NCBI RefSeq assembly: GCF_001642955.1
Contig: NZ_LWSK01000020.1
Coordinates: 1 to 64,000, forward strand
Source: Rubripirellula obstinata
GTDB taxonomy: Bacteria > Planctomycetota > Planctomycetia > Pirellulales > Pirellulaceae
Direction: 5' to 3'
DNA length: 64,000 nt
Shown: positions 7,521 through 50,906 of the stretch, piece after piece
Numbering within the stretch: the stretch's first letter is position 1
How the letters are laid out: every line of letters starts with the position of its first letter
The notes under the pieces: model-generated
Database searches by the model: none
Told to the model about the DNA's origin: nothing
What the model saw: only the letters and a program-made list of their open reading frames with translations
Position numbers and translations under genes: made by a program

Positions 7521-8579
7521 TTGTCGCCGCCTCGATTTGCATCTTCGTTCGCCGAACTTAGACTCTGGCGTTGGCTTGTCGTTTGTCATCAAGTCACAAG
7601 CAAAGGTGATGCACCCTCTGGATCCTGGTTTTCTAGTTTGCAAGCTCCGTTCGATTTTCATCACTACCTGCCCATCAACGATGCGGACTTGCTATCGGGG
7701 CTTTACCTGATCGGTGGAGGACGACGCCGGATCGTTTCGGGGGCGACTTATCCTCCCGTCGAACATCCGGGGGTCTATCAATTTCAGTGGAGCCAAGGTC
7801 GTGAATTGCCGGAGTATCAGATTATCTTGCTGTCCGACGGAGGTGGTGAGTTTGAATCCAAACCGACCGGGACGATGAAATGGAATGACGCGGCACTGGT
7901 GATTCTGTTCCCAGGCGTCTGGCATCGTTACAAGCCGAAACCCAAACAAGGCTGGACCGAACGTTGGATCTCGATTCACGGCCAGGACGTGCCCACGATT
8001 TTTGATGAAGGTGGTTTAAGTCCTGAGCACGCGGTCATTCCGCTTAGCAACGTCGAATGGTGCGAGCAGACTTTTGACACCGTGCTGCAGCGAATCGCAA
8101 GTGAACCCACCGGCCAGTCGGCTGCGCTTCGGATCGGAGCGATGCAGGTGATGGCCGTTACGCTGGACCACGTTCCCGCCAAAAGCAACCTGCCGCCGGA
8201 CGAACCTCTCAGCCGCGTCAAAGACTCTGTCCTCAATCAAGTCAGCGATGAACTTGTCAAAGACGCGGTGAGTTTGATTTGGACGCAAAGCCATCGCCGG
8301 ATGACCGTGGACCATTTGGTTTCGCAGTTGCCGTGTACCCGTCGAACTCTCGAACGCCGATTCAGCACAGAACTCGGTCACACGATCCTGGATGAAATCA
8401 ATCGTTGTCGGCTGACGCGTGCGAAGATGATGCTGAAACAAACCACGCTGCCAATCAAGTCGATCGCCTACATGTCTGGTTTTGGCGATCAAGAACGATT
8501 GCGAGTTTTGTTGCATCAAGACGAACATTGTAGCCCCAGCGAATATCGCGAACGTTCTCACACCCAAGAATCAACATGA
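7521..8579 (+). CDS. AraC-family transcriptional regulator, XylR-like
   Basis: This sugar-responsive regulator has an N-terminal ligand-binding domain and a C-terminal AraC double helix-turn-helix (about residues 250-345). Helix motifs visible are TRRTLERRFSTELGHTI and SIAYMSGFGDQERL. The open frame gives 352 residues, but family members begin close to the FDFHHYLPIN segment (residue 44 here). The true start may therefore be a TTG near 7638, and the first 40 residues are doubtful. The stop overlaps the next start by 4 bp (ATGA), so the symporter is translationally coupled. Its position before a rhamnose-type transporter, an isomerase and a rhamnosidase suggests control by rhamnose or a related deoxysugar. 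Confidence 0.85.
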   Translation: MSPPRFASSFAELRLWRWLVVCHQVTSKGDAPSGSWFSSLQAPFDFHHYLPINDADLLSGLYLIGGGRRRIVSGATYPPVEHPGVYQFQWSQGRELPEYQIILLSDGGGEFESKPTGTMKWNDAALVILFPGVWHRYKPKPKQGWTERWISIHGQDVPTIFDEGGLSPEHAVIPLSNVEWCEQTFDTVLQRIASEPTGQSAALRIGAMQVMAVTLDHVPAKSNLPPDEPLSRVKDSVLNQVSDELVKDAVSLIWTQSHRRMTVDHLVSQLPCTRRTLERRFSTELGHTILDEINRCRLTRAKMMLKQTTLPIKSIAYMSGFGDQERLRVLLHQDEHCSPSEYRERSHTQEST

Positions 8580-33385: not shown

Positions 33386-36181
33386 ATGATCCAACCACAC
33401 CAAGCCTTCCACGTTCTTCTGCTGTGCATCATCACAGCGAGTCTGTCGCAGCCCGCCCAATCGCAGCCCCCCCAATTCCAAGCATCGCAGTGGATCGGCT
33501 ACACCCAGGACGACCGACCCGAACAATGGTCCCGCCGTGGCGTCACGTTCAATCGTCCACCCGCTGATATTTCGTCGTGGAAACCCACCGCTAAAGAACT
33601 GCGTTCGACACCGCGGAAATCATTCCCATCGCCACGGCTGCGAAAAACGTTTGACATCACCAAACAAGTCCAATCCGCCGAGGCGATGATCAGCGGCGTC
33701 GGACTGTATGAGTTGTACCTCAACGGCGAAAAGGTCGGCGACGAAGTTCTCGCTCCGGCACAAACGTCCTACGACGAACGAGTCTTCTACAACACGTTCG
33801 ACGTGACCGCGCAAATCAAGTCCGGAAAAAACGCCGTCGGCGTCATGCTGGGCAACGGCTTCTATGGCCAGAACATCGCCTTTGCACCCAACCTCAGCTA
33901 CGGTGCGCCGCGAGCCCTGGTGACGATCCGAAGCACCTACAACGACGGCAGCCAATCGACGGTCCATTCTGATGAAACTTGGCGAGCCAGCACCGGACCG
34001 ATCCTGTTCGACAACGTTTACCTTGGTGAAACGTTTGATGCCCGTGAAGTGACGCCAGGGTGGTCGACCGCGAATTTTGACGCCGCCGACTGGTCATCCG
34101 CACAGATCATGGACGCACCCACCGACCGGCTCGAAAGGCAAGGCATCGAACCGATGCGGAAAGTTCGTCGTGTGACGCCGGTCGCGGTGATGCCGGCCGA
34201 AGAAGGTTGGATCATCGACATGGGCGAGAACATGACCGGATGGTTGCAAATCGCAGTGCAAGAAACCGCGGGCACGATCGTCACGATGCGATTCGCCGAA
34301 CACTTGATGCCCGACGGGAAAAATATCGACACCGCATCGACCGGCATCCACGCCACCGGCGGCGAACAAATGGACGTGTATATCTGCCGAGGCGATGGCA
34401 AAGAAACCTGGGAGCCGCGTTTCACCTATCACGGGTTCCGTTACGTCCAAGTCACCGGTGTGACCTCCAAACCGGATGTCGATCAGTGGGCCGGTTGGTG
34501 GGTGCGAACTGACGTGGATCGAATCGGATCGTTCGAGTGCTCGGACGAATTGATCAACACGTTTTACGAAGTGTCGATCCGCACGATTGAAGGCAACCTG
34601 CAAGGCTTGTTGAGCGATTGCCCGCACCGCGAACGTTGTGCGTGGATGGGAGACATTCATGCCGTTGGCGAAGCAGCATCGTATAACTTTGACCTGCGAA
34701 AATTTTGGCCCAAGGTCTCCGCTGATATCGAAACGATGTTGGGCAAAGGGGGCGGCAACGAGCGTGCCGGATTGCCCAACGATCCACGTGCGCCGTGCAA
34801 CATCGCGGTCGGCAAACGCGATTGCGGCCAAGCCCGTCCCGACTGGGGCGCGGCAACGGTCTTGGTGCCGTGGTATGGCTATCTGCACTACGGCGATGTC
34901 GAGATGGTCAAAGAAGCGTGGCCAATGATGCAGGGCTGGCTGGCTTACCTGGATGATTTCGCCGTCAAGGACGGCATCATCAATGACGGCTTCGGCGATT
35001 GGTGTCCTCCCGGGTCCAACACAAAAAAGGACACTCCATCCGCGTTGACTTCGACGGCACTTTATTACCAATCGTTGGTGGCCATGCAACAAATGGCGAC
35101 GGCGATTGGCAAGACCGCCGAATCGAAACAATACGCTCAGCAAGCCGCCGTCATCAAAGAAGCGTTCAACAAAACGTTTTACAAAGTCACCGATGTTCCC
35201 GTCAGTTCGGAACTGAATGACGCATCGATCAAGATCACCAAAGCGTTATACGGTGCTCCGTCAAAGCAGATGGATATATCACGATTGATCCAAGATATCG
35301 TGGACTCGGGAAAACGTCGTTTCAACATCAACAACCCGCTGGTCGGAAAAGATCCCGCACCAGGATTAAAGAAAACGTTGACACTAGAATACGAAGTCAA
35401 CGGTAAGCCGCAAAAGCAAACCGTTCCCGAAAGATCCGACGTCTACTTCTTACGCAAATCCGTTGCCGGTTATGGATCACAAACCGGAAGCGCCGTCGCG
35501 TTGTTTTCAGGACTCGTCCCCGACGGCGAACAACAAGCCGTCGTCGATGGTTTGGCCGACATGATCATGAAGAAATCGGGCGGCCATTACACCACCGGCA
35601 TCTTCGGGCATCGTCCGCTCTACACGTTGCTGAACGATTATGGCCACGGCGATGTGACACGTCATTTGTGGCGGATCACCGATTGGCCAAGCCTCGGCTT
35701 CATGACCGAAAAGCACGATCTGACCACTTGGCCGGAAGTGCCGTTCGATTGGCAAGCTGGCCGACGTTACTTGCGAAATTCATTCAACCATCCGATGCAC
35801 AGCGGCTTTGCCGCCGCGTTCCACGAAAGCATCGGTGGTATCCGGCCCGATCCAGAAAACCCCGGCTTCAAAACCATTTTACTACGGCCAACGTTTTTGC
35901 CCGATTTACAATGGGCCAAAGCCTCCCTCCGATCACCGCAAGGCTTGATCGTCAGCGATTGGAAACGCGACAACGAAACACTCACTTGGGAAGTGACCAT
36001 CCCGGACGGCTGCGACGGCAACGTCGATCTATCCGGCGGAAATTTCTCACAAGTAACCGTTAACGGAAAACCGGTCGCCCCGAACACCTTTGAACTGAAT
36101 TCGGGCCAGTGGACCGTTGAACTGAAAAATGACGTAGTGGATCTTGTTAAAGATCCCAGCACTGATTCGCCCCAAAATTGA
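33386..36181 (+). CDS. Secreted GH78 rhamnosidase with DUF3395-like insert
   Basis: This is a 931-residue exported GH78 protein. A signal peptide (1-26) precedes the Bac_rhamnosid_N domain (about 75-240), a beta sandwich (about 255-370), the (alpha/alpha)6 catalytic domain (about 385-830) and a C-terminal beta domain. The catalytic motif is complete: D411-C-P-H-R-E416-R-C-A-W-M-G-D423. E784 (LTTWPEVP) is the likely base. Residues about 612-687 interrupt the catalytic domain with a DUF3395-like module (ITKALYG and KDPAPGLKKTLTLEYEVNG). The last 16 residues are encoded by half of a family F repeat, so the native end was probably altered by that insertion. An N-terminal fibronectin-like domain, present in the other GH78 proteins, is missing. 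Confidence 0.92.
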   Translation: MIQPHQAFHVLLLCIITASLSQPAQSQPPQFQASQWIGYTQDDRPEQWSRRGVTFNRPPADISSWKPTAKELRSTPRKSFPSPRLRKTFDITKQVQSAEAMISGVGLYELYLNGEKVGDEVLAPAQTSYDERVFYNTFDVTAQIKSGKNAVGVMLGNGFYGQNIAFAPNLSYGAPRALVTIRSTYNDGSQSTVHSDETWRASTGPILFDNVYLGETFDAREVTPGWSTANFDAADWSSAQIMDAPTDRLERQGIEPMRKVRRVTPVAVMPAEEGWIIDMGENMTGWLQIAVQETAGTIVTMRFAEHLMPDGKNIDTASTGIHATGGEQMDVYICRGDGKETWEPRFTYHGFRYVQVTGVTSKPDVDQWAGWWVRTDVDRIGSFECSDELINTFYEVSIRTIEGNLQGLLSDCPHRERCAWMGDIHAVGEAASYNFDLRKFWPKVSADIETMLGKGGGNERAGLPNDPRAPCNIAVGKRDCGQARPDWGAATVLVPWYGYLHYGDVEMVKEAWPMMQGWLAYLDDFAVKDGIINDGFGDWCPPGSNTKKDTPSALTSTALYYQSLVAMQQMATAIGKTAESKQYAQQAAVIKEAFNKTFYKVTDVPVSSELNDASIKITKALYGAPSKQMDISRLIQDIVDSGKRRFNINNPLVGKDPAPGLKKTLTLEYEVNGKPQKQTVPERSDVYFLRKSVAGYGSQTGSAVALFSGLVPDGEQQAVVDGLADMIMKKSGGHYTTGIFGHRPLYTLLNDYGHGDVTRHLWRITDWPSLGFMTEKHDLTTWPEVPFDWQAGRRYLRNSFNHPMHSGFAAAFHESIGGIRPDPENPGFKTILLRPTFLPDLQWAKASLRSPQGLIVSDWKRDNETLTWEVTIPDGCDGNVDLSGGNFSQVTVNGKPVAPNTFELNSGQWTVELKNDVVDLVKDPSTDSPQN

Positions 36182-36238: not shown

Positions 36239-36303
36239 AAATGCCGCTCGCCTTGGGTGACAAGCATCACGAACAACATCAACGACTTCTTTTGAATCAA
36301 AAT

Positions 36304-39300
36304 ATGACTCTTCAACCAACCTTTCCCGCGCTCGCCAAGCTGCTGATCAGCTTTGCGATCGGACTCGTTTTCTCGCAATCGTCGATCGCCTCGACGCCAC
36401 TGAGTCCCATCGATCTGCGATGTGAATACCACACCGATCCGGTTGGCATCGATGCCTCGCAACCGCGGCTGAGTTGGCGACTGACGACCGACGGTCAACC
36501 GGAACCAGAACAACGTGGGTTGAAACAGTCTGCGTATCGCGTTCTGGTTGCCAGTTCGCTCGAAGACCTCTCACGCGGCCGCGGCGACCTGTGGGACAGC
36601 GGCCGGGTGGATACCGATCGCACGATCCAACAAGGCTACCAAGGATCCGAACTTCAATCGCGGCAACAATGTTTCTGGAAGGTCATGTTCTGGGATCACG
36701 ACGATCAAGCGTCGGCGTGGAGTAATCCAGCGCGGTGGTCGATGGGACTACTGGAACCGTCGGATTGGAAATCACAGTGGATCGGTTACGACAAAATCCC
36801 GGATCCAACGATTCAGCAAAACTCCAAAGTCGTGGTGACCAAGGCAATCTTTGGCGTCCTACGCAACAAAGATCTATGTGCCGACGTCACCGACAAAATC
36901 AACCAGCTCATCGCCGATGGAAAGTACAGTTTCAAGGTCTCCAACGATCTTGCCGACAAAGACCCGGCGTTCGGACGAAAAAAACGATTGTCGTTGGAAT
37001 ACACGCTCGACGGAAACTTGATCAAACGAACGCTCAATGAGAACACCGAGTTCGCGTTCCTGAGCACGGCCCAGCCGAAATTGCTCAAGCGTCGATACTT
37101 GGCATCGCCGCACTTGCGAAAAGATTTCTCAATCGACGCCGCCGTCAAACGCGCCGTGGTCTACGTCACGGCCCAAGGCGTGGTCGAAATGCGGTTGAAC
37201 GGACAACGCATCGGTGACGAATTCCTGGCACCGGGATGGACCGATTATCGCAAACGAATCTACTACCGTGCCTATGACGTTTCGGATCTTCTGCAATCCG
37301 GCAAAAACACGATCGGTGGCATTTTGGGCGACGGTTGGTTCCGTGGCAACATCAGCATCAAAGGACAAAACCAGTACGGCGACAAACTTCGCCTCCGCAC
37401 ACAGCTTCACATCGATTATGCCGACGGCCGGTCCGAAACGATCGCTTCGGATCCATCGTGGAAGGCTTCCTTTGGCCCCATTTTGCAATCGGACATGCAC
37501 GCGGGCGAAACCTTTGACGCGCGTTTGGAAATGCCAGGCTGGGACCAACCCGGTTTCAATGATCGCCAGTGGGAATCGGTCGACACCGGATCGGAAATCG
37601 ATTCGCTGCTTCAATCCTATCCCGGCGATCCGATTCGCCGCACCGGTGAATTGGCCGTCACCAAGATCACGCAGCCGCACACCGGGTTGCATGTGTTTGA
37701 TCTGGGTCAAAACTTTTCCGGTTGGGTGCGTTTGAAAATCAGCGGCCGATCGGGTGACAAGATCACGATGCGGTTTGGCGAAATGCTCAATCCCGACGGT
37801 TCCGTTTTCATGGACAACCTCCGTTCGGCTCGCGCGACCGACACCTACATCTTGAAAGGTGGCGGCGAAGAGGTCTGGGAACCTCATTTCACGTTCCACG
37901 GTTTTCGGTACGTCGAAGTCGAGGGACTGCCAGGCAAACCGCCGGCCGACACGATCACGGGAGTCGTCATTCATACCGACGCGCCGATGACGAGTTCGTT
38001 TGAGTGTTCTGATCCGATGTTGAATCGTTTGCACCAGAACATTCTGTGGGGCCAACGTTCCAACTATTTGGAAGTGCCAACGGATTGCCCGCAGCGTGAC
38101 GAGCGTTTGGGTTGGACCGGTGACACGCAAGTGTTCATTCGATCGGGAACCTATCACCAAGACGTCGCCGCGTTCTTTACCAAGTGGATGGTCGATTTGG
38201 CCGATTCGCGAAACCCGGCCGGCATCTACGGCAACCAAGCACCGGTCTTCCACGGCTGGGGCAGTCCCGGTTGGTCCGACGCGGGCGTGATTTGTCCATG
38301 GACAATCTATCAAGCCTACGGCGACAAGCGAATTTTAGAAACGCACTACGACGAGATGAAATGTTACATCGAAGCGTGCGGTCGCAACGGGATGGGTGGA
38401 CTGGGCAATGGCTTTGGGGATTGGTTATCGATCGGCGCGGCCACACCCAAAAACTTGATCTCGGTCGCCTACTACGCCTACAGCACACAATTGATGGCGA
38501 AGATTGCAACCACGCTCGGCAAGCCCGATGACGCGAAGCAGTTCGAGTCGCTCTTTGAACAATTGCGAGAACACTTCCAAAAGACCTTTGTCGACAACGA
38601 TGGCAAGATCAAAGGTCACACGCAAACCGGTTACTGCATGGCGCTGACCTACGATTTGCTCACCGACAAACAACGCAGGCAGGCCGCTGACCATTTGGTC
38701 GAACGTATCGAATCGAAGAACCATCATTTGTCAGTCGGCTTTTTGGGTGTGTCGATTTTGCTGCCGACGTTGACCGAGATTGGCCGCAGTGACTTGGCAT
38801 ATCAACTGATTCAAAACAAAACCTATCCGTCATGGGGCTACTCGGTCGAGCAAGGTGCGACAACGATTTGGGAACGTTGGAACAGTTGGACCAAGGGCGA
38901 AGGATTCAACGCCGGCGCGATGAATTCATTCAACCACTATGCCTACGGTGCGTGCAGCGAGTGGATGTTCGCCAGCATGTTGGGGATCGACATGGCCAGT
39001 CCGGGTTACCAGACCATCCAAATGAAACCCGAAATCGGCCACGGCGTGACCTGGGCCAAAGGGCATTACGATTCGATCCACGGCCGGATCGCCAGCGATT
39101 GGAAAAACGATTCTGGCACGTTCCGATGGAAAGTCACCGTGCCACCCAACACAACCGCAATGATCTCCTTGCCCACCGCAAAGATCGAAAACGTCACCGA
39201 ATCCGGGCGGCCCGTCAAAGGTGTTCCCGGCATTCAATCCCATACGGTTGAGAACGACCGTGTCATGATCCAAGTCGGTTCGGGGACCTATCAATTCTCG

Positions 39301-39324
39301 GTGGTCGGACCTTGGTCAAAGTGA
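36304..39324 (+). CDS. Secreted GH78 alpha-L-rhamnosidase with DUF3395-like insert
   Basis: This is a 1006-residue exported GH78 enzyme. Order: signal peptide (about 1-30), fibronectin-like N-domain (about 33-165), a DUF3395-like insert (about 174-253), Bac_rhamnosid_N (about 270-430), beta sandwich (about 440-560), (alpha/alpha)6 catalytic domain (about 565-900) and C-terminal beta domain. The catalytic motif is canonical (D594-C-P-Q-R-D-E600-R-L-G-W-T-G-D607), with the base at E857 in GATTIWERW. The start at 36304 excludes 21 upstream codons. The insert (VVVTKAIFG and DKDPAFGRKKRLSLEYTLDG) is homologous to that of the previous gene but sits at another position in the protein. Confidence 0.94.
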   Translation: MTLQPTFPALAKLLISFAIGLVFSQSSIASTPLSPIDLRCEYHTDPVGIDASQPRLSWRLTTDGQPEPEQRGLKQSAYRVLVASSLEDLSRGRGDLWDSGRVDTDRTIQQGYQGSELQSRQQCFWKVMFWDHDDQASAWSNPARWSMGLLEPSDWKSQWIGYDKIPDPTIQQNSKVVVTKAIFGVLRNKDLCADVTDKINQLIADGKYSFKVSNDLADKDPAFGRKKRLSLEYTLDGNLIKRTLNENTEFAFLSTAQPKLLKRRYLASPHLRKDFSIDAAVKRAVVYVTAQGVVEMRLNGQRIGDEFLAPGWTDYRKRIYYRAYDVSDLLQSGKNTIGGILGDGWFRGNISIKGQNQYGDKLRLRTQLHIDYADGRSETIASDPSWKASFGPILQSDMHAGETFDARLEMPGWDQPGFNDRQWESVDTGSEIDSLLQSYPGDPIRRTGELAVTKITQPHTGLHVFDLGQNFSGWVRLKISGRSGDKITMRFGEMLNPDGSVFMDNLRSARATDTYILKGGGEEVWEPHFTFHGFRYVEVEGLPGKPPADTITGVVIHTDAPMTSSFECSDPMLNRLHQNILWGQRSNYLEVPTDCPQRDERLGWTGDTQVFIRSGTYHQDVAAFFTKWMVDLADSRNPAGIYGNQAPVFHGWGSPGWSDAGVICPWTIYQAYGDKRILETHYDEMKCYIEACGRNGMGGLGNGFGDWLSIGAATPKNLISVAYYAYSTQLMAKIATTLGKPDDAKQFESLFEQLREHFQKTFVDNDGKIKGHTQTGYCMALTYDLLTDKQRRQAADHLVERIESKNHHLSVGFLGVSILLPTLTEIGRSDLAYQLIQNKTYPSWGYSVEQGATTIWERWNSWTKGEGFNAGAMNSFNHYAYGACSEWMFASMLGIDMASPGYQTIQMKPEIGHGVTWAKGHYDSIHGRIASDWKNDSGTFRWKVTVPPNTTAMISLPTAKIENVTESGRPVKGVPGIQSHTVENDRVMIQVGSGTYQFSVVGPWSK

Positions 39325-42569: not shown

Positions 42570-43146
42570 CAAACAAATGGGTCAAACCTTTTTGTTTTGC
42601 GGTGGGTTCCCCATCAAAGAGGTTTGACCCATTGGTTTTCTCCCCGGCCTCGTAGCATGGCCCCCTGGGCCGTGGCAACACAAAACTCGGCCCAGGGGGC
42701 CAAGCTACTTCGTGCCTCCGTCGTTCTTGGAAGAAGGCAAATGGGGCAAACCTCACTGTTTCGTGTCGATCAAAAACTAGGTATGACCATTTGTTTTCTC
42801 ATCGGCCTCGTAGCATGGCCCCCTGGGCCGTGGCAACACAAAACTCGGCCCAGGGGGCCAAGCTACTTTGTGCCTCCGTCGTTCTTGGAAGAAGGCAAAT
42901 GGGGCAAACCTCTCTGTTTCGTGCCGATCAAAAACTAGGTATGACCCATTTGTTTTCTCCCCGGGCCCGTAGCATGGCCCCCTGGGCCGTGGTGACACAA
43001 AACTCGGCCCAGGGGGCCAAGCTACTTCGTGAAACAAATGGGTCAAACCTCTTTGTTTTGCGGTGGGTTACCCATCGTGAATCAATTTGGTCAAACCTCA
43101 TTTTTGATCGGCACGAAACAAAGAACTTTGACCCAATTGATCTTTT
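42570..43146. repeat. 159-bp double-palindrome array, cluster 1
   Basis: Three copies of a unit recur, with the anchor GTAGCATGGCCCCCTGGG at 42652, 42810 and 42969 (spacing 158 and 159 bp). Each unit holds two alternating palindromes. One is built on GTAGCATGGCCCCCTGGGCC and its complement ending GGGGGCCAAGCTAC. The other is built on CAAATGGGGCAAACCT and AGGTATGACCCATTTG. The edges carry related half units (near 42570-42621 and 43030-43146). Because 159 is divisible by three, long open frames run through the array, but I regard them as chance. Confidence 0.9.
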
Positions 43147-44087: not shown

Positions 44088-44789
44088 GACGGGTCAAACC
44101 TCTTTGTTTTGCGGTGGGTTCCCCATCAAAGAGGTATGACCCATTTGTTTTCTCATCGGCCTCGTAGCATGGCCCCCTGGGCCGTGGCAACACAAAACTC
44201 GGCCCAGGGGGCCAAGCTACTTCGTGCCTCCGTCGTTCTTGGAAGAAGGCAAATGGGGCAAACCTCTCTGTTTCGTGCCGATCAAAAACTAGGTATGACC
44301 CATTTGTTTTCTCATCGGCCTCGTAGCATGGCCCCCTGGGCCGTGGCGACACAAAACTCGGCCCAGGGGGCCAAGCTACTTTGTGCCTCCGTCGTTCTTG
44401 GAAGAAGGCAAATGGGGCAAACCTCTCTGTTTCGTGCTGATTAAGAAAGAGGTTTGATCTATTTGTTTTCTCATCGGCCCCGTAGCATGGCCCCCTGGGC
44501 CGTGGCGACACAAAACTCGGCCCAGGGGGCCAAGCTACTTTGTGCCTCCGTCGTTCTCGGTAGAAGGCAAATGGGGCAAACCTCTCTGTTTCGTGCCGAT
44601 CAAAAACTAGGTATGACCCATTTGTTTTCTCATCGGCCTCGTAGCATGGCCCCCTGGGCCGTGGCAACACAAAACTCGGCCCAGGGGGCCAAGCTACTTC
44701 GTGCCTCCGTCGTTCTCGGTAGAAGGCAAATGGGGCAAACCTCTCTGTTTCGTGCCGATCAAAAACGAGGTTTGACCCATTTGTTTTCT
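44088..44789. repeat. 159-bp double-palindrome array, cluster 2
   Basis: Four copies of the unit of cluster 1 recur with the anchor at 44164, 44323, 44482 and 44641, exactly 159 bp apart. The left edge (44091-44142) is nearly identical to the left edge of cluster 1 (42575-42621), including TTTGTTTTGCGGTGGGTTCC. Copies differ by a few substitutions, some affecting both palindrome arms. There are no unique spacers. The 44790-45016 stretch that follows holds no gene or repeat I can identify. Confidence 0.9.
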
Positions 44790-45016: not shown

Positions 45017-46552
45017 ATGATCGCAACTGACCACATCAATGAATCGCCTGAACTGCAGCCATTCGATGAGCACAACCAAACGCTGGCCGACAATGTTCAT
45101 CCACAGACTTGGGTCAACCCTACACCATCAGGCCGCTACAACTTGGTCGTCATTGGGGCTGGAACGGCGGGCCTGGTGACTGCCGCGGGAGCTGCGGGCT
45201 TGGGTGCGAAGGTCGCGCTGATCGAACGCAATTTGATGGGTGGTGATTGTCTAAACGTTGGGTGTGTTCCTTCCAAAGCGATCATCAGTGCGGCTCGCGT
45301 TGCGGCGTCGGTCAAAAATGGCGACACGTTTGGCGTCAATGTCGATGGCTTTCAAGTTGACTTCGGCAAAGTAATGGAGCGAATGCGTTCGCTTCGCGCC
45401 GGTATCAGTCACCACGATTCGGCGAAGCGGTTTCAGGAATTGGGCGTCGATGTGTTCATCGGCAGCGGCAACTTTACGTCTTCAGGAACCGTCGAAGTCG
45501 GCGGCCAGACGCTGGAATTCAAACGAGCGGTGATCGCAACCGGCGCTCGTGCAGCAAACTTGCCAATCCCCGGCTTGGAAGACGTCAACGCGCTGACCAA
45601 CGAGACAATCTTTTCACTCACCGAATTGCCGGCAAGATTGACCGTGATCGGTGGTGGTCCCATCGGCAGCGAGATGGCTCAGTCGTTCGCACGTTTCGGA
45701 AGCCAAGTCACGCAAATTGAAAAAACAGAACACATCCTGGCTCGTGAGGACGCCGATGCTGCCAAAGTCGTGCAGGCGTCGATGGAGCGTGATGGCGTCA
45801 ACTTTTTAACCTCAGCCAATGTCAAACGCTTCGAGATGCGTGGCAGCGACAAGGTCACGATCTATGAAATCGACGGCGTCGAAAAGGAAGTTGCCAGCGA
45901 CGAGATCTTGATCGGCATCGGGCGAACGCCCAACGTCGATGGGATGGGACTAGAAAAGGTGGGTGTCAAGTTCGACAAGCGAACCGGTATCGAAGTCAAC
46001 GATAAGATGCAAACTGCCAACCCGATGATCTATGCAGCAGGCGATGTGGCATCCAAATTTAAGTTCACGCATGCGGCCGATTTTCTGGCGCGTATCGTGA
46101 TCGGAAACACATTGTTCAAGGGACGATCCAAGGCGAGCAACTTGGTGATTCCCTGGGCAACGTACACGTCGCCTGAACTCGCACACGTCGGCATGTCAAC
46201 ATCGGACGCCGCCGAAGCGGGCATCGAGATCGACACGTTCACTCAGCAACTGTCGGGGGTGGATCGTGCAATTTTGGAAGGCCAAACCGAAGGCTTTGCT
46301 CGGGTCCACGTCAAGAAAGGCACCGACCAAATTGTTGGCGCGACCATCGTCGCTGAAAATGCAGGCGACATGATCAGCGAATTCACCTTAGCGATGACCA
46401 ATGGGATCGGGTTGAAGAAGATTGGTTCGACGATCCACCCGTATCCCACCCAAGCGGAAGTGATTCGTAAGCTGGGCGATCAATTTAACAAGACTCGTCT
46501 GACACCGATGGTCAGCAAGCTGTTCAAGAAATGGCTCGCTTGGACAAGGTGA
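45017..46552 (+). CDS. FAD-dependent pyridine nucleotide-disulfide oxidoreductase, MerA-like
   Basis: This 511-residue flavoprotein belongs to the dihydrolipoamide dehydrogenase/mercuric reductase family. After a 40-residue N-terminal extension comes the FAD-binding GAGTAGL motif and the redox disulfide C78-L-N-V-G-C83. An NAD(P)-binding motif (VIGGGPIGSEMAQ), a second FAD motif (IYAAGDV) and the C-terminal dimer domain with the His base (STIHPYPTQAEV) follow. It lacks the metal-binding HMA domain and the C-terminal cysteine pair of true mercuric reductases, so the physiological substrate is unknown. It is read in the same direction as the dehydrogenase downstream, 168 bp apart. Confidence 0.88.
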   Translation: MIATDHINESPELQPFDEHNQTLADNVHPQTWVNPTPSGRYNLVVIGAGTAGLVTAAGAAGLGAKVALIERNLMGGDCLNVGCVPSKAIISAARVAASVKNGDTFGVNVDGFQVDFGKVMERMRSLRAGISHHDSAKRFQELGVDVFIGSGNFTSSGTVEVGGQTLEFKRAVIATGARAANLPIPGLEDVNALTNETIFSLTELPARLTVIGGGPIGSEMAQSFARFGSQVTQIEKTEHILAREDADAAKVVQASMERDGVNFLTSANVKRFEMRGSDKVTIYEIDGVEKEVASDEILIGIGRTPNVDGMGLEKVGVKFDKRTGIEVNDKMQTANPMIYAAGDVASKFKFTHAADFLARIVIGNTLFKGRSKASNLVIPWATYTSPELAHVGMSTSDAAEAGIEIDTFTQQLSGVDRAILEGQTEGFARVHVKKGTDQIVGATIVAENAGDMISEFTLAMTNGIGLKKIGSTIHPYPTQAEVIRKLGDQFNKTRLTPMVSKLFKKWLAWTR

Positions 46553-46720: not shown

Positions 46721-47944
46721 ATGGATTTCGACAACGAACAAGTCAATCAGATCGTAAGCAACGTCCTCAGGAAAGTGAATCGAGGGCCAAGCGACACGAA
46801 TGAATCGCCAGATGAGACAATACCAGGCGGACAGAAATCAGGACGTGCCGCCGTGTTGAAGGCACCCCGTCAACTTGAGATTGTCGAGTTTCCGTTGCGC
46901 CAAATTGGTCCGGATGAAATTTTGGTTAAGGTTGAAGCCTGCGGAGTGTGTGGTACCGATATTCACTGCTACAAATCAGATCCGTTTGGCTTAGCGCCCG
47001 TGGTGTTGGGGCACGAAGGCACGGGGGAAGTGATTGAAGTTGGCCGGAACGTGCAAATGGATAGCGTCGGAAAGCCCGTTCGCGTTGGCGACAAGATTGT
47101 GACCAGTATTCTGGAGACTTCGGATAGCTGTATGATCGCAAAGTACAATCCGCTGAAGTCAAATCTGTGCGACGACTTGCGGGTTTACGGATTGTTGCCT
47201 GACGAACCACAGAATCACTTCAACGGGTATTTTGGCGAGTACTTGATTATCCGTCCCGAATCGTCGGTGTTTGTAGTCAATGAAATGAGCGTTGACTTGC
47301 GATGCCTGATCGAACCCGCAGCAGTCGTCTGTCACGCACTTGAACGCGCCAAGAACTCCGGTGCAACGTTGAATTTTCGTACCCGTGTTGTGGTCCAAGG
47401 CTGCGGCCCGATTGGGTTGTTGATGATTGCGGTGCTAAGGACTTATGGCATCAACAACATCATTGCGATCGATGGCAATGAAGGTCGATTGGCGATGGCA
47501 CAGTCGCTTGGTGCGGATGAGCTAATCAACTACCGTGACTATGCCGGTATCGATGAAATGGCGGCCAAGGTTGAAAGTCTGACCAAGGGACTTGGTGCCC
47601 ACTTCGGATTCCAAGTCACCGGTGTCCCGATCGCGTTTTCGAACCTGTTTAAGTGCATTCGGCGCGGAGGTGGAATTTGCGAAGTCGGGCATTTTGTCGA
47701 TGGCGGAGAGTGCGCGATCAATCCTCACAAAGACATTTGCCGCAAAGAGATTACGGTAACCGGCAGTTGGGTTTACAACAGTTTCGAGTACCCCAACGCC
47801 TATCACTTCTTGCAGAGAGCTGAACGCATTGGTTTACCAGTTGCCTCGCTAATCACCCACAAGTTTCCGCTCGATCGGATTCAAGAAGCGTTTGAAGTGA
47901 ACCTTCGTCAAGAAGGCGTGAAAGTTGTGGTTGAAATAACCTGA
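46721..47944 (+). CDS. Zinc-type alcohol dehydrogenase with N-terminal targeting-like helix
   Basis: This 407-residue medium-chain dehydrogenase has a typical core from about residue 44. The catalytic zinc region is ACGVCGTDIH (C77) and GHEGTGEV (H98, E99). The NAD(P)-binding motif is VVQGCGPIGLLMIAV. The four-cysteine structural zinc lobe is reduced to C137 and C150. Ahead of the core is a 43-residue extension: an amphipathic helix (VNQIVSNVLRKV, hydrophobic at 8, 11, 12, 15, 16, 19) and a flexible Pro/Gly/Ser linker. This matches the design of encapsulation peptides that carry enzymes into bacterial microcompartments. Planctomycete microcompartments handle lactaldehyde from rhamnose and fucose, so a lactaldehyde/propanediol role is possible, but unproven. 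Confidence 0.87.
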   Translation: MDFDNEQVNQIVSNVLRKVNRGPSDTNESPDETIPGGQKSGRAAVLKAPRQLEIVEFPLRQIGPDEILVKVEACGVCGTDIHCYKSDPFGLAPVVLGHEGTGEVIEVGRNVQMDSVGKPVRVGDKIVTSILETSDSCMIAKYNPLKSNLCDDLRVYGLLPDEPQNHFNGYFGEYLIIRPESSVFVVNEMSVDLRCLIEPAAVVCHALERAKNSGATLNFRTRVVVQGCGPIGLLMIAVLRTYGINNIIAIDGNEGRLAMAQSLGADELINYRDYAGIDEMAAKVESLTKGLGAHFGFQVTGVPIAFSNLFKCIRRGGGICEVGHFVDGGECAINPHKDICRKEITVTGSWVYNSFEYPNAYHFLQRAERIGLPVASLITHKFPLDRIQEAFEVNLRQEGVKVVVEIT

Positions 47945-47946
47945 TC

Positions 47947-49437
47947 TCATTTCCAAAGCAACATTGCTTTGATCTCCGCGGGCGTTGAGAATGCATTTCC
48001 GCCCTTGTTGGCACCGGTGATCCACCAGTAAAGCATTCCTGCGTCGGAACAATCAAATTTGTTGTTCTGGAATTTGACAACGCCATCTCGTTCGGCGTAT
48101 TGAAGCTGTTTCCAGATCCATTTGATGTTGGAATCACGTTGGCGTTTGGCCCAATCCCAATAGTTGATTGCCGTTTGCAAGCCAGCGTTCTGGTCACCGA
48201 TTTGGTGTTCCGTGACCCCGAAATCCAAGATCTGTTTCCAAGTGAAAAAATCACCGCTGTCATCATTGGCCGGGTGATGCGAAACCACGTGTACGTGCCG
48301 ATGTTTTGCCGGCGCTGCAGCCTGCAACGCGAAACCAATGATGTCGGGTTCGCCCGCTTCGATGATCCAAAGCGGATTGTCCTTGGACGATGCGTCGATC
48401 GCATCACGCAGGTCGTTCACGGCCGCCTCTTGCTGGGTTCTGCAATTAAAAATGCTTTTCAGATTGTTGAAAGGTCCGAACTTTGTGACTCCGTCTTCGC
48501 AGAGTCGTTGCAGCACTTTTTGGCGTCGTCGTTCATCTGATTTGGAAATGCGATTGACCGGTTTTAGATCGCATGAATGCGAAAGGTGAACCAAGCGATC
48601 ATTCAAACCGGATGCCTTCAACAGGCCAAACATCACAGCGGTAGCGCCGATGTCGTCAGGGTCGGGTGAATTCCCGTCAGCGACGACAGCTAATCGACCG
48701 ACTGGCGGATCGATCAATTCAGAAATTTTGGTCGAACTGGATTCATCCGCAGTCGCAGCGCCGCTGGATAAGGTTTCCGAAACTGCAAGATCTTGCGCGT
48801 CTTTTGCGGTCACGGATTGGTGGCGAAAGACGATTCGGTCCAGCTTGAAACCCTTTGAGCGACCAGAAACCACTAGCGTATAAAGATTGCCAGTATTGAA
48901 ACGATAGATGGCGACTCTTTTGTTGCTGTGTCCACCGGGATCAAGTTGGTTGCCTGAGGCCCAAACAAATTCTTTGTCCTTGCCACCAAAAAACTTGGTG
49001 TCTTTTTTCAGCAGCGGTAGCGGTGCGTGATCGCCATGCTTGTCGCCGGAATTTGGCCCCGAGTCAAAGTTGCCTTGAACTCGGACAAAACAATCATTGG
49101 CGACGTCTTTTCGTGTTTCGCCATCGATGACTTGCGTTTCGCGAGCGCAATGCAGGTGCAAGGAATACAAACCGGGTTTGTTGATTTTGAATGTGTATTG
49201 AAGCGGCGAATTGGGCCGACCAGTCAGGTATTCGTTGCCGGTGAAATTCAGATACCCTTTGCCGGCATGACCCTGAATCGAGTTTTCTCTTCGCCAGCTA
49301 CCAAGTCGTGAAGGAGTGTTTTCGGCTTCGAACACCACCAACCCGTTTTGTTCTTGATAAACCGGGTTTGCCAAAGAGTTACCGACGCAGCCAATCATGA
49401 CAGCAGCGATCATCAGTAATCGGGTTGAAGGGTTCAT
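47947..49437 (-). CDS. Secreted protein with carbohydrate-binding and nucleoside-hydrolase-like domains
   Basis: This is a 496-residue exported protein (signal peptide about 1-23). Residues about 25-210 form a beta-sandwich like carbohydrate-binding modules (VVFEAENTPSRLGSW, LYSLHLHCARET). Residues about 240-490 resemble the inosine-uridine nucleoside hydrolase/DUF1593 fold, with the metal-binding Asp cluster in DGNSPDPDDIGA and IIEAGEPDIIGFAL. Its start codon overlaps the stop of the BNR-4 gene by 4 bp (ATGA), so translation is coupled to it. In this setting it probably acts on a glycan product rather than on nucleosides; this is inference. Confidence 0.8.
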   Translation of the reverse strand: MNPSTRLLMIAAVMIGCVGNSLANPVYQEQNGLVVFEAENTPSRLGSWRRENSIQGHAGKGYLNFTGNEYLTGRPNSPLQYTFKINKPGLYSLHLHCARETQVIDGETRKDVANDCFVRVQGNFDSGPNSGDKHGDHAPLPLLKKDTKFFGGKDKEFVWASGNQLDPGGHSNKRVAIYRFNTGNLYTLVVSGRSKGFKLDRIVFRHQSVTAKDAQDLAVSETLSSGAATADESSSTKISELIDPPVGRLAVVADGNSPDPDDIGATAVMFGLLKASGLNDRLVHLSHSCDLKPVNRISKSDERRRQKVLQRLCEDGVTKFGPFNNLKSIFNCRTQQEAAVNDLRDAIDASSKDNPLWIIEAGEPDIIGFALQAAAPAKHRHVHVVSHHPANDDSGDFFTWKQILDFGVTEHQIGDQNAGLQTAINYWDWAKRQRDSNIKWIWKQLQYAERDGVVKFQNNKFDCSDAGMLYWWITGANKGGNAFSTPAEIKAMLLWK

Positions 49438-50906
49438 TGCGCAGTTTCCGTTAGTCGATAATCAATAACGTGTAAGGACGATGGGAATCCGTTGAGCGGT
49501 TCATTGAGGTTGGTTTCCAAGAGCCTAGCGGGTGCAGTTTGGCTGTAAATCGAAAGCACTTTTTCCGCCTCCCATCGTTGTAAATCAACCAACGCGTCGC
49601 CGATGGTTGACTCGCGTTTGCTGAGCTTAACGTTGCTCCAATCCCAACCTGTGCTGTCAACGCGTGGTGATCCCTTCGCGATCAATAGCTGATCATTGTC
49701 AGTGTAAACGAGGACAAATGATCGATCTTTCGTTCCCACCAACTTTGGTCGATCTCCGGCGAACGGCAGCACTTCTTTTTGCCAGGTTCCATCGCTGCTT
49801 CGCCAGTAATGATGGTAACGTTTTTCCCAGGTCCCCTGGGGTTTTCCTGGCAGATGATGTCGCAGCAAAACGTGAATGCTGCCGTCCTGGTAAGCGTAAT
49901 GCGTGTTCTGGTTCGTCAGTCCGAAATTGATCGGGATCGGTGCGACAACCAAACCGGGACTGTTTAGGTGAATGAATTTCTTACCAGTTTCTGCGATCTG
50001 TTTTCCGTTTGAATTGTGCCACGTGCGTCCGTCGTCGTCGCTGTAAGCGTAACAAAGATCGTGCTGGTTTTTCGGATTCGTTTTCTCGAATCGGTCCCGC
50101 CAAATCCAGGAAGCATGCAATCGGTTTCCCGCGTAAGAAACTGAATCAACGTAGGGGCAACGGTACAGGCTGGTTTCGCCATCGACCGAGTAGGTGCCGA
50201 TGTCACGAGAAATAAACTTCCCAAGTCCTGGCGTCCAGTCATGCGTGTCGCCATCGTATTCTTCAATGATGCCGTCACCGTTGCCCGAGGTGACCGCTCG
50301 ATAGTAGAGCATCAGATTGCCGTTTGGCGCTGGGACAAACCTTGGGTAGGTCACTGAATCATCAGGAGTGACTGAGCCGAGTGTATGAGAAACGCCGCCA
50401 AAAAGTTCGGCGGTCCAAGCGACGGAATCTGGATCGTGGGCGACTCCCAATTTTGAAACACGGTAATTCAATGGTGTTGCGTGATGGTCGAACGCCATGT
50501 GAATCGTGCCGTCTTTGTCGCAAATGCCTAGCACTGTCGCATTGTGTGAATCATTCGTCTTGAACTTGTGGTCCTGGAATCGAATAATTTCCCAATCGCT
50601 ACTTGGCAGCTTTCTGCGACCAATGCAAACACGCCGCTGTGCATCGTAGTAGGTGACGTATTGATAGCCGCGGTAGGTGGTTAGTGGCGTCTGTTGATGA
50701 GTTCGCCCGTTGACCGCAGTCGAAAAACGTGCTGCGGGACCGAACGCAAAAGTCAGAGCTTGTTGATCAACGGTTGTCTTATCGATCAGTTCAATCTGAT
50801 CTGTTTGCACCGGACGCTGGTCAGAACCTTCGACGGCTAATCCTTGGAATGGGGCCATGACGGCCAGTGCAAGTAAAGTCCATCGCAAGGTAGATAGAAA
50901 CGGCAT
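49434..50906 (-). CDS. BNR-4 propeller protein, candidate ulvan lyase (PL24/PL25-like)
   Basis: This 490-residue exported protein (signal peptide about 1-25) is a predicted seven-bladed propeller of the BNR-4 family. The region NDSHNATVLGICDKDGTIHM followed by AFDHHATPLNYR carries H121 and H141/H142. From memory, this matches the pair of catalytic histidines about 20 residues apart in PL24 and PL25 ulvan lyases. Repeated blade segments include DDDGRTWHN and WRSSDGTWQKE. Ulvan lyases cleave between rhamnose-3-sulfate and uronic acids. The wealth of rhamnosidases and a sulfatase in this window fits that role. BNR-4 proteins without lyase activity also exist, so the activity remains a candidate. 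It is the first gene of the coupled pair. Confidence 0.8.
   Translation of the reverse strand: MPFLSTLRWTLLALAVMAPFQGLAVEGSDQRPVQTDQIELIDKTTVDQQALTFAFGPAARFSTAVNGRTHQQTPLTTYRGYQYVTYYDAQRRVCIGRRKLPSSDWEIIRFQDHKFKTNDSHNATVLGICDKDGTIHMAFDHHATPLNYRVSKLGVAHDPDSVAWTAELFGGVSHTLGSVTPDDSVTYPRFVPAPNGNLMLYYRAVTSGNGDGIIEEYDGDTHDWTPGLGKFISRDIGTYSVDGETSLYRCPYVDSVSYAGNRLHASWIWRDRFEKTNPKNQHDLCYAYSDDDGRTWHNSNGKQIAETGKKFIHLNSPGLVVAPIPINFGLTNQNTHYAYQDGSIHVLLRHHLPGKPQGTWEKRYHHYWRSSDGTWQKEVLPFAGDRPKLVGTKDRSFVLVYTDNDQLLIAKGSPRVDSTGWDWSNVKLSKRESTIGDALVDLQRWEAEKVLSIYSQTAPARLLETNLNEPLNGFPSSLHVIDYRLTETAQ

Follow-up and report, generated by a model that had tools for sequence, protein, structure and literature searches.

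The window analyzed here, 64,000 nucleotides from Rubripirellula obstinata, comprises positions 1–64,000 of contig C113 of a 6.58 Mb draft genome. At 46,721–47,944 on the forward strand lies an intact open reading frame (ORF) that starts with ATG and encodes a 407-aa zinc-dependent medium-chain (MDR) alcohol dehydrogenase (ADH) with a tagged N-terminus, which we propose to be microcompartment cargo on the basis of the ORF, Pfam, structure matches and orthologs. A pyridine nucleotide-disulphide oxidoreductase is encoded directly upstream (45,017–46,552, forward; Pfam PF07992 and PF02852) and a BNR_4 repeat protein downstream (49,434–50,906, reverse; PF15892). Farther upstream are two genes for GH78 α-L-rhamnosidases, at 33,386–36,181 (forward; PF17389, PF08531 and PF05592) and at 36,241–39,324 (forward; PF17389, E = 6.2e-119), the latter 7.4 kb from ADH. 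A tblastn search of the window found more GH78-like stretches at 11.4–14 kb and sulfatase-like stretches at 20.2–21.2 kb. Two 158/159-base tandem repeat arrays (42,620–43,031 and 44,131–44,789) separate the rhamnosidase cluster from the oxidoreductase gene.

The protein is, judged from its sequence, a zinc MDR alcohol dehydrogenase with GroES-like and Rossmann domains and putative zinc ligands. Pfam places ADH_N at residues 63–183 and ADH_zinc_N at 230–365; an earlier note on this DNA had described the core as complete. In alignment A1 (32 rows), C77, H98, E99 and D251 are invariant and the motif Q-G-C-G-P-I-G at 226–232 is invariant or nearly so. We take C77, H98 and E99 to be the catalytic zinc ligands, and D251 is presumably the NAD(H)-type residue. 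An AlphaFold2 model (mean pLDDT 85.5) shows a helix at residues 5–20 (pLDDT ~70), values below 50 for residues 21–36 and strands from residue 40. Three segments of the forward strand can be delimited: an encapsulation-peptide-like amphipathic helix (residues 1–20; 46,721–46,780), a variable, disordered linker (residues 21–40; 46,781–46,840) and, from A1, the dehydrogenase core (46,841–47,941). TM0436 (1vj0), a zinc alcohol dehydrogenase, is the best match in the PDB by both sequence and fold; it is 29% identical, and the helix residues fall outside the sequence matches. With the closest PDB fold at that distance, no characterized close homolog was found to indicate the substrate of ADH, and its own genome holds no paralog better than E = 4e-18.

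The N-terminal extension is conserved as a helix and not as a linker. In an alignment of 24 tagged copies, every copy has hydrophobic residues at positions 8, 11, 12, 15 and 16, with V12 conserved in all 24; mean pairwise identity is 0.45 over helix residues 7–19, 0.13 over the linker, which has 40% gaps, and 0.75 over the core. In nine pairs, with synonymous sites near saturation in most, pN/pS was 0.00–0.47 for the helix compared to 0.16–0.88 for the linker and was lower for the helix in all nine, which means that the helix is translated and constrained. By these comparisons the extension is not a chance feature, and the model and the conservation together agree with the earlier description of the first ~20 residues as an amphipathic helix followed by a linker. 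A mis-called start or an untranslated stretch could be argued from the fact that the translation is conceptual only, but the low helix pN/pS and the conservation of the helix in two phyla make such an error extremely improbable.

The helix of ADH is similar to the tags carried by the PduP, PduL and aldolase encoded in the microcompartment locus of the same genome, where PduP starts MQFDESIIRNVVAQVLSEV and ADH starts MDFDNEQVNQIVSNVLRKV. A first position-specific scoring matrix (PSSM) was built from 33 PduP, PduL and aldolase tags, three of them from this genome and none from ADH, with several training rows out of register (some aldolase rows and one PduL row). The ADH N-terminus scored 14.7 bits, a value reached by 3 of 20,000 shuffles and by seven of 226 ends of ORFs of at least 250 residues in the loci that supplied the tags, namely ADH and six training cargo ends. 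ADH orthologs spread from −2.0 to 19.6 bits with this matrix, and not all scored well. With a second PSSM, made from 22 tags of other genomes only, again ADH-free, and scored on N-termini only, the window ADH ranked 27th among 500 ORF N-termini. Ranks 1–35 were all taken by PduP, PduL or ADH copies; the top unrelated protein was 36th, at 5.4 bits, and several ADH copies lay outside the top 45. Searched against the whole genome, profile A2 (24 positions, 13 rows, window ADH and own PduP included) returned only ADH (3.6e-9), PduP (2.9e-8) and PduL (0.005; not in the profile) at E < 1, and no further orphan cargo at that threshold.

The strict profile A3 (16 positions, 22 tags, no ADH and no row from this genome) did not agree with the two ADH-free PSSMs and A2: its genome-wide search left the window ADH unlisted and placed the own PduP just third, at E = 2.7. 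This counts against the tag reading, and we ascribe it to the little information that short tags carry; the PSSM made from the same 22 rows and scored on N-termini only asks a different, easier question. The two A3 matches besides PduP were rejected as cargo tags, both being frame-internal: one is at position 170 of 394, and the other lies 49 residues before the end of a 287-residue frame. The A3 result also speaks for a cytosolic ADH whose helix serves another purpose, such as an oligomer contact, its likeness to encapsulation peptides being convergence on a simple amphipathic pattern; such helices are described as having no conserved primary structure (PMC6325248). We nevertheless consider a cytosolic enzyme highly unlikely, as ADH ranks among cargo only in the set of 500 N-termini, untagged orthologs keep the core, tag and shell genes co-occur, and many orthologs are linked to shell loci (see below). 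Overall, the likeness to cargo tags of the same genome that the earlier note had suggested is upheld by the PSSMs and A2 and not by A3, and targeting of ADH to a microcompartment is well supported by comparison.

Shell genes are present in the genome that encodes ADH, as the earlier proposal demanded: two PF00936 and three PF03319 genes, all on contig C235. The same locus (L003/L004) contains genes for PduL, acetate kinase, PduP and class II aldolase by Pfam, together with a DeoR-like and an LDH-like gene assigned by reading. With the expected genes clustered, it is by sequence a PVM-type (fucose/rhamnose) microcompartment locus. No shell gene had been seen in the window, and indeed none of the 12 proteins of the own PVM locus had a match there (tblastn, E = 1e-4). 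Reckoned from the contig ends, ADH and the shell locus are at least ~24 kb apart and are therefore not in one operon. Enzymes encoded in distal loci have been described, some with extensions resembling encapsulation peptides (PMC8217296). Within the own PVM locus, L003:15949–16620 encodes a 223-aa protein without a Pfam match and with an encapsulation-peptide-like N-terminus, IDIASIVRRVIHELKKM. By eye it is like the additional N-terminal segment that PVM aldolases have in Verrucomicrobiota (L043, from position 7,585 on), and it is perhaps a split-off targeting domain. Among the matches listed, ~17 or more relatives (G022–G054) carry a further PF00936 pair in one longer frame of ~190–320 aa, BMC-T-like and at a distance from the main locus; such a frame is absent from the own genome.

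A scan of contigs from 84,980 species returned 22 ortholog loci, 45–84% identical to the window ADH. The N-terminus ahead of the core is helix-like in all 22 (in L054, where it scores low at 0.6 bits, it was recognized in the sequence upstream of the match), and PF00936 is present in all 22 genomes, a co-occurrence to be weighed against the fact that shells are common among relatives of R. obstinata anyway (55 of 59). ADH and shell genes share a contig in 10 of the 22, with PVM genes inside the fetched locus: nine Verrucomicrobiota and L059, a 45% relative of the window ADH in an aldolase/PduP/shell locus. L043 and L056 share one gene order: PduL, two BMC-H, AckA, BMC-H, BMC-P, PduP, two BMC-P, aldolase, an LDH/MDH-type gene (assigned by Pfam in L043) and ADH. 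The other 12 loci, all four planctomycetes among them, have ADH and shell genes on separate contigs. A position in or near the shell locus, a usual but non-defining trait of cargo, is thus seen for these 10 orthologs and not for the window ADH. Distances vary: in G596, a single 3.75 Mb Verrucomicrobiota contig, ADH (0.35 Mb) and shell genes (3.46 Mb) are truly distant, while in G640 they are 5–7 kb apart. The earlier suggestion of an unlinked cargo protein of the rhamnose/fucose compartment is thereby strengthened. In L061 (10,001–10,558), a metagenome-assembled genome (MAG), an ADH gene beside the PVM locus keeps the tag and is missing ~205 core residues in frame, a loss that could be real or an assembly artefact. 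Six plasmid records matched at E = 1e-40, each with less than 60% identity and aligned from residue 38 or later; none was a tagged ortholog, and no ADH relative was found on viral contigs.

In Verrucomicrobiota, the enzyme was found in 38 of 288 genomes at E = 1e-50 or better: tagged in eight (70–79% identity; four already among the 22 scan genomes), untagged in 29 (47–57%) and as a remnant in one (G561). PF00936 occurs in 48 of the 288, including 8/8 genomes with tagged ADH, 0/29 with untagged ADH and the remnant genome, which is excluded from the count of eight. Untagged orthologs in organisms with the compartment, which the earlier note had held would speak against cargo status, were therefore not seen among these 288 genomes. 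All 29 untagged N-termini were read; the open frames of L100, L106, L112 and L117 extend farther, but no stretch in them was read as the tag, and the untagged copies keep the ADH core. In L117 (G484), which has no shell genes, a Lys/Ala-rich stretch precedes the untagged core. Because the 28 untagged copies in the tree form one clade (support 99/98 and 100/96), the contrast of 8/8 with 0/29 represents one or two events and not 37. L059 is sister to this clade (support 98/82 and 98/79) and sits on a long branch, so that an ancestral tag later lost in the untagged clade is only a lean. The trees exclude L058, L061, L134, L135 and duplicate copies, and the final tree also the outgroup rows L018 and L021. 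According to a published survey (PMC13174399), microcompartments were detected in aquatic Akkermansiaceae only; should the untagged genomes belong to gut Akkermansia, their lack of shell genes would agree with this.

The neighborhoods of untagged copies give little functional hint: among four loci read, one (L127) has a GH29 fucosidase, and tblastn of 15 untagged stretches with glycosidase/sulfatase queries matched L127 alone. In the shell-bearing genome G561, the remnant (L135:9119–11248) covers approximately residues 153–405 with gaps; six bases separate it from a convergent gene for a homolog, 56% identical, of the window oxidoreductase (45,017–46,552), and the two genes may have travelled together.

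The link to polysaccharide breakdown drawn by the earlier note was only partly sustained. Besides the GH78 genes of the window, two GH29 fucosidases and sulfatases flank ADH in Aporhodopirellula, sulfatases and GH95 surround it in Rhodopirellula sallentina, and a GH29 gene lies ~3 kb from it in Haloferula. A tblastn survey with eight glycosidase/sulfatase queries, several of which came from L040, L055 and the window and so match themselves there, gave matches in five of the 12 unlinked loci (L040, L042, L047, L053 and L055) plus the window. The other seven (L041, L044, L045, L049, L051, L054 and L058; four shorter than 20 kb) had no match to the eight queries, nor did eight of the nine linked Verrucomicrobiota loci or L059; the ninth, L057, had one GH95-like match. 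Degradation of algal polysaccharides rich in fucose and rhamnose has been discussed for these bacteria (PMC8857213). Such neighbors in planctomycetes, and the presence of sorbitol and threonine dehydrogenases among the MDR relatives, would suit a sugar or polyol dehydrogenase of a rhamnose/fucose polysaccharide cluster, encapsulated or not, with a substrate other than lactaldehyde. That assignment is unlikely, since the Verrucomicrobiota copies adjoin the genes for PVM aldolase and PduP, a setting in which one expects an enzyme acting on lactaldehyde, and their loci are nearly devoid of matches to the eight queries.

The role that we propose for ADH follows from this locus context and from known systems. 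In the metabolosome scheme, the NAD+ consumed by aldehyde dehydrogenase is regenerated within the shell by an alcohol dehydrogenase (PMC4784909). For PVM compartments, the text available from PMC4207490 predicts an LDH/MDH to be the NAD+ recycler, as the sole locus candidate besides aldehyde dehydrogenase; by reading, such a tag is missing from the start of both the own LDH-like protein and the LDH/MDH of L043. GRM5 loci of the Clostridium phytofermentans Cphy_1179 type are described as encoding, for fucose and rhamnose, a PF00596 aldolase and PduP alongside a lactaldehyde reductase with the PF00107/PF08240 pair (PMC3557285 and PMC6325248); they also include a propanediol dehydratase. On the strength of the scheme, the untagged LDH/MDH and the GRM5 parallel, we infer ADH to be a lumenal lactaldehyde reductase. 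ADH would thus probably be an accessory PVM cargo protein encoded outside the shell operon. Its N-terminal helix would dock it to the shell or cargo core during organelle assembly; L-lactaldehyde made by the encapsulated aldolase would in part be reduced by ADH to 1,2-propanediol, and the accompanying oxidation of NADH would supply the NAD+ needed by PduP. The enzyme would in this way fill the alcohol-dehydrogenase role of the metabolosome core.

The same tag and locus evidence would also accommodate an encapsulated ADH running in reverse, oxidizing 1,2-propanediol to lactaldehyde in the shell so that the organelle also feeds on propanediol, and enzymes of the MDR family can in principle work in both directions. 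Aerobic degradation of fucose and rhamnose is the task ascribed to the PVM compartment (PMC4207490), so that NADH could be respired elsewhere. PduP, however, also yields NADH, and the two reactions would load the lumen with NADH unless LDH restored the balance or NAD(H) could pass through the shell; moreover, published schemes assign lactaldehyde reduction to an enzyme in such a role (PMC6620236 and PMC6325248). We leave the reverse reaction a small but real chance and prefer lactaldehyde reduction.

Compared to the PVM cargo of Planctomycetes and Verrucomicrobia (PduP, PduL and class II aldolase), ADH shares the terminal amphipathic helix and linker in the same genome, and its orthologs adjoin PVM genes in nine Verrucomicrobiota loci; it differs in that the window gene lies outside the shell operon and was not found in 59 near relatives (E = 1e-60). 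PduQ and EutG, which we take to be iron-type alcohol dehydrogenases, differ from the window ADH, a zinc MDR. The metabolosome-core role of these enzymes, the recycling of NAD+ inside the shell (PMC4784909), is the one proposed for ADH, and the iron type has been called the typical one (PMC4207490).

Among near relatives, ADH is rare where shells are not. None of 59 near relatives has it at E = 1e-60, and 55 of the 59 have shell genes; at the thresholds used, shells occur without ADH in these 55 and in 39 of the 48 shell-bearing Verrucomicrobiota genomes, so ADH is not essential. In a sample of 392 genomes of the phylum, the own included, no other copy exceeds 36% identity; the planctomycete MDR homologs at 28–36% mostly align only from about residue 26–48 on and are presumed to be other enzymes. 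The window ADH is 84% identical to the copy in Aporhodopirellula, 83% to that in R. sallentina, 80% to that in a Pirellulales MAG and 79% to that in Haloferula; in A1 it is 72–79% identical to 16 of 18 Verrucomicrobiota copies (L053, 63%; L099, 69%). Against this, the own PduP is 44.7–49.6% and the aldolase 37–43% identical to those of the nine linked Verrucomicrobiota loci. From this discord ADH was probably gained independently of the other organelle genes, rates differing between families so that the figures are no proof. In the tree, the four-member Pirellulales group (98/98) has no firm place among the Verrucomicrobiota copies, so that transfer may have gone in either direction. We see about an even chance that a lone tagged cargo gene moves between phyla and joins an organelle encoded and inherited elsewhere; some Pirellulales would thus have gained the PVM NAD+-recycling step as a single gene set amid those for rhamnose/fucose polysaccharides, while lineages without the shell would have lost the tag.

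In the literature searched, which covered article texts in part, no zinc ADH tagged for the PVM compartment was described, whether linked or unlinked, and no paper on a microcompartment alcohol dehydrogenase in Pirellulales or their kin was found; earlier notice is possible. Erbilgin et al. 2014 is the founding paper, and such notice may stand there. Orellana et al., in the text available, report a BMC-related 'dehydrogenase' in metaproteomes, with no further name given there. ADH is a tagged candidate for the alcohol dehydrogenase of the PVM compartment, for which no clear one was named in the available text of PMC4207490, and its gene is linked to the locus in several Verrucomicrobiota and lies apart from it in a few planctomycetes. 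Orthologous forms of the enzyme that have or lack an encapsulation peptide, in shell-bearing and shell-less genomes, offer a natural comparison. The finding suggests that cargo be sought genome-wide, and, if tagged cargo genes do travel in this way, the contents of an organelle would not be readable from its locus.
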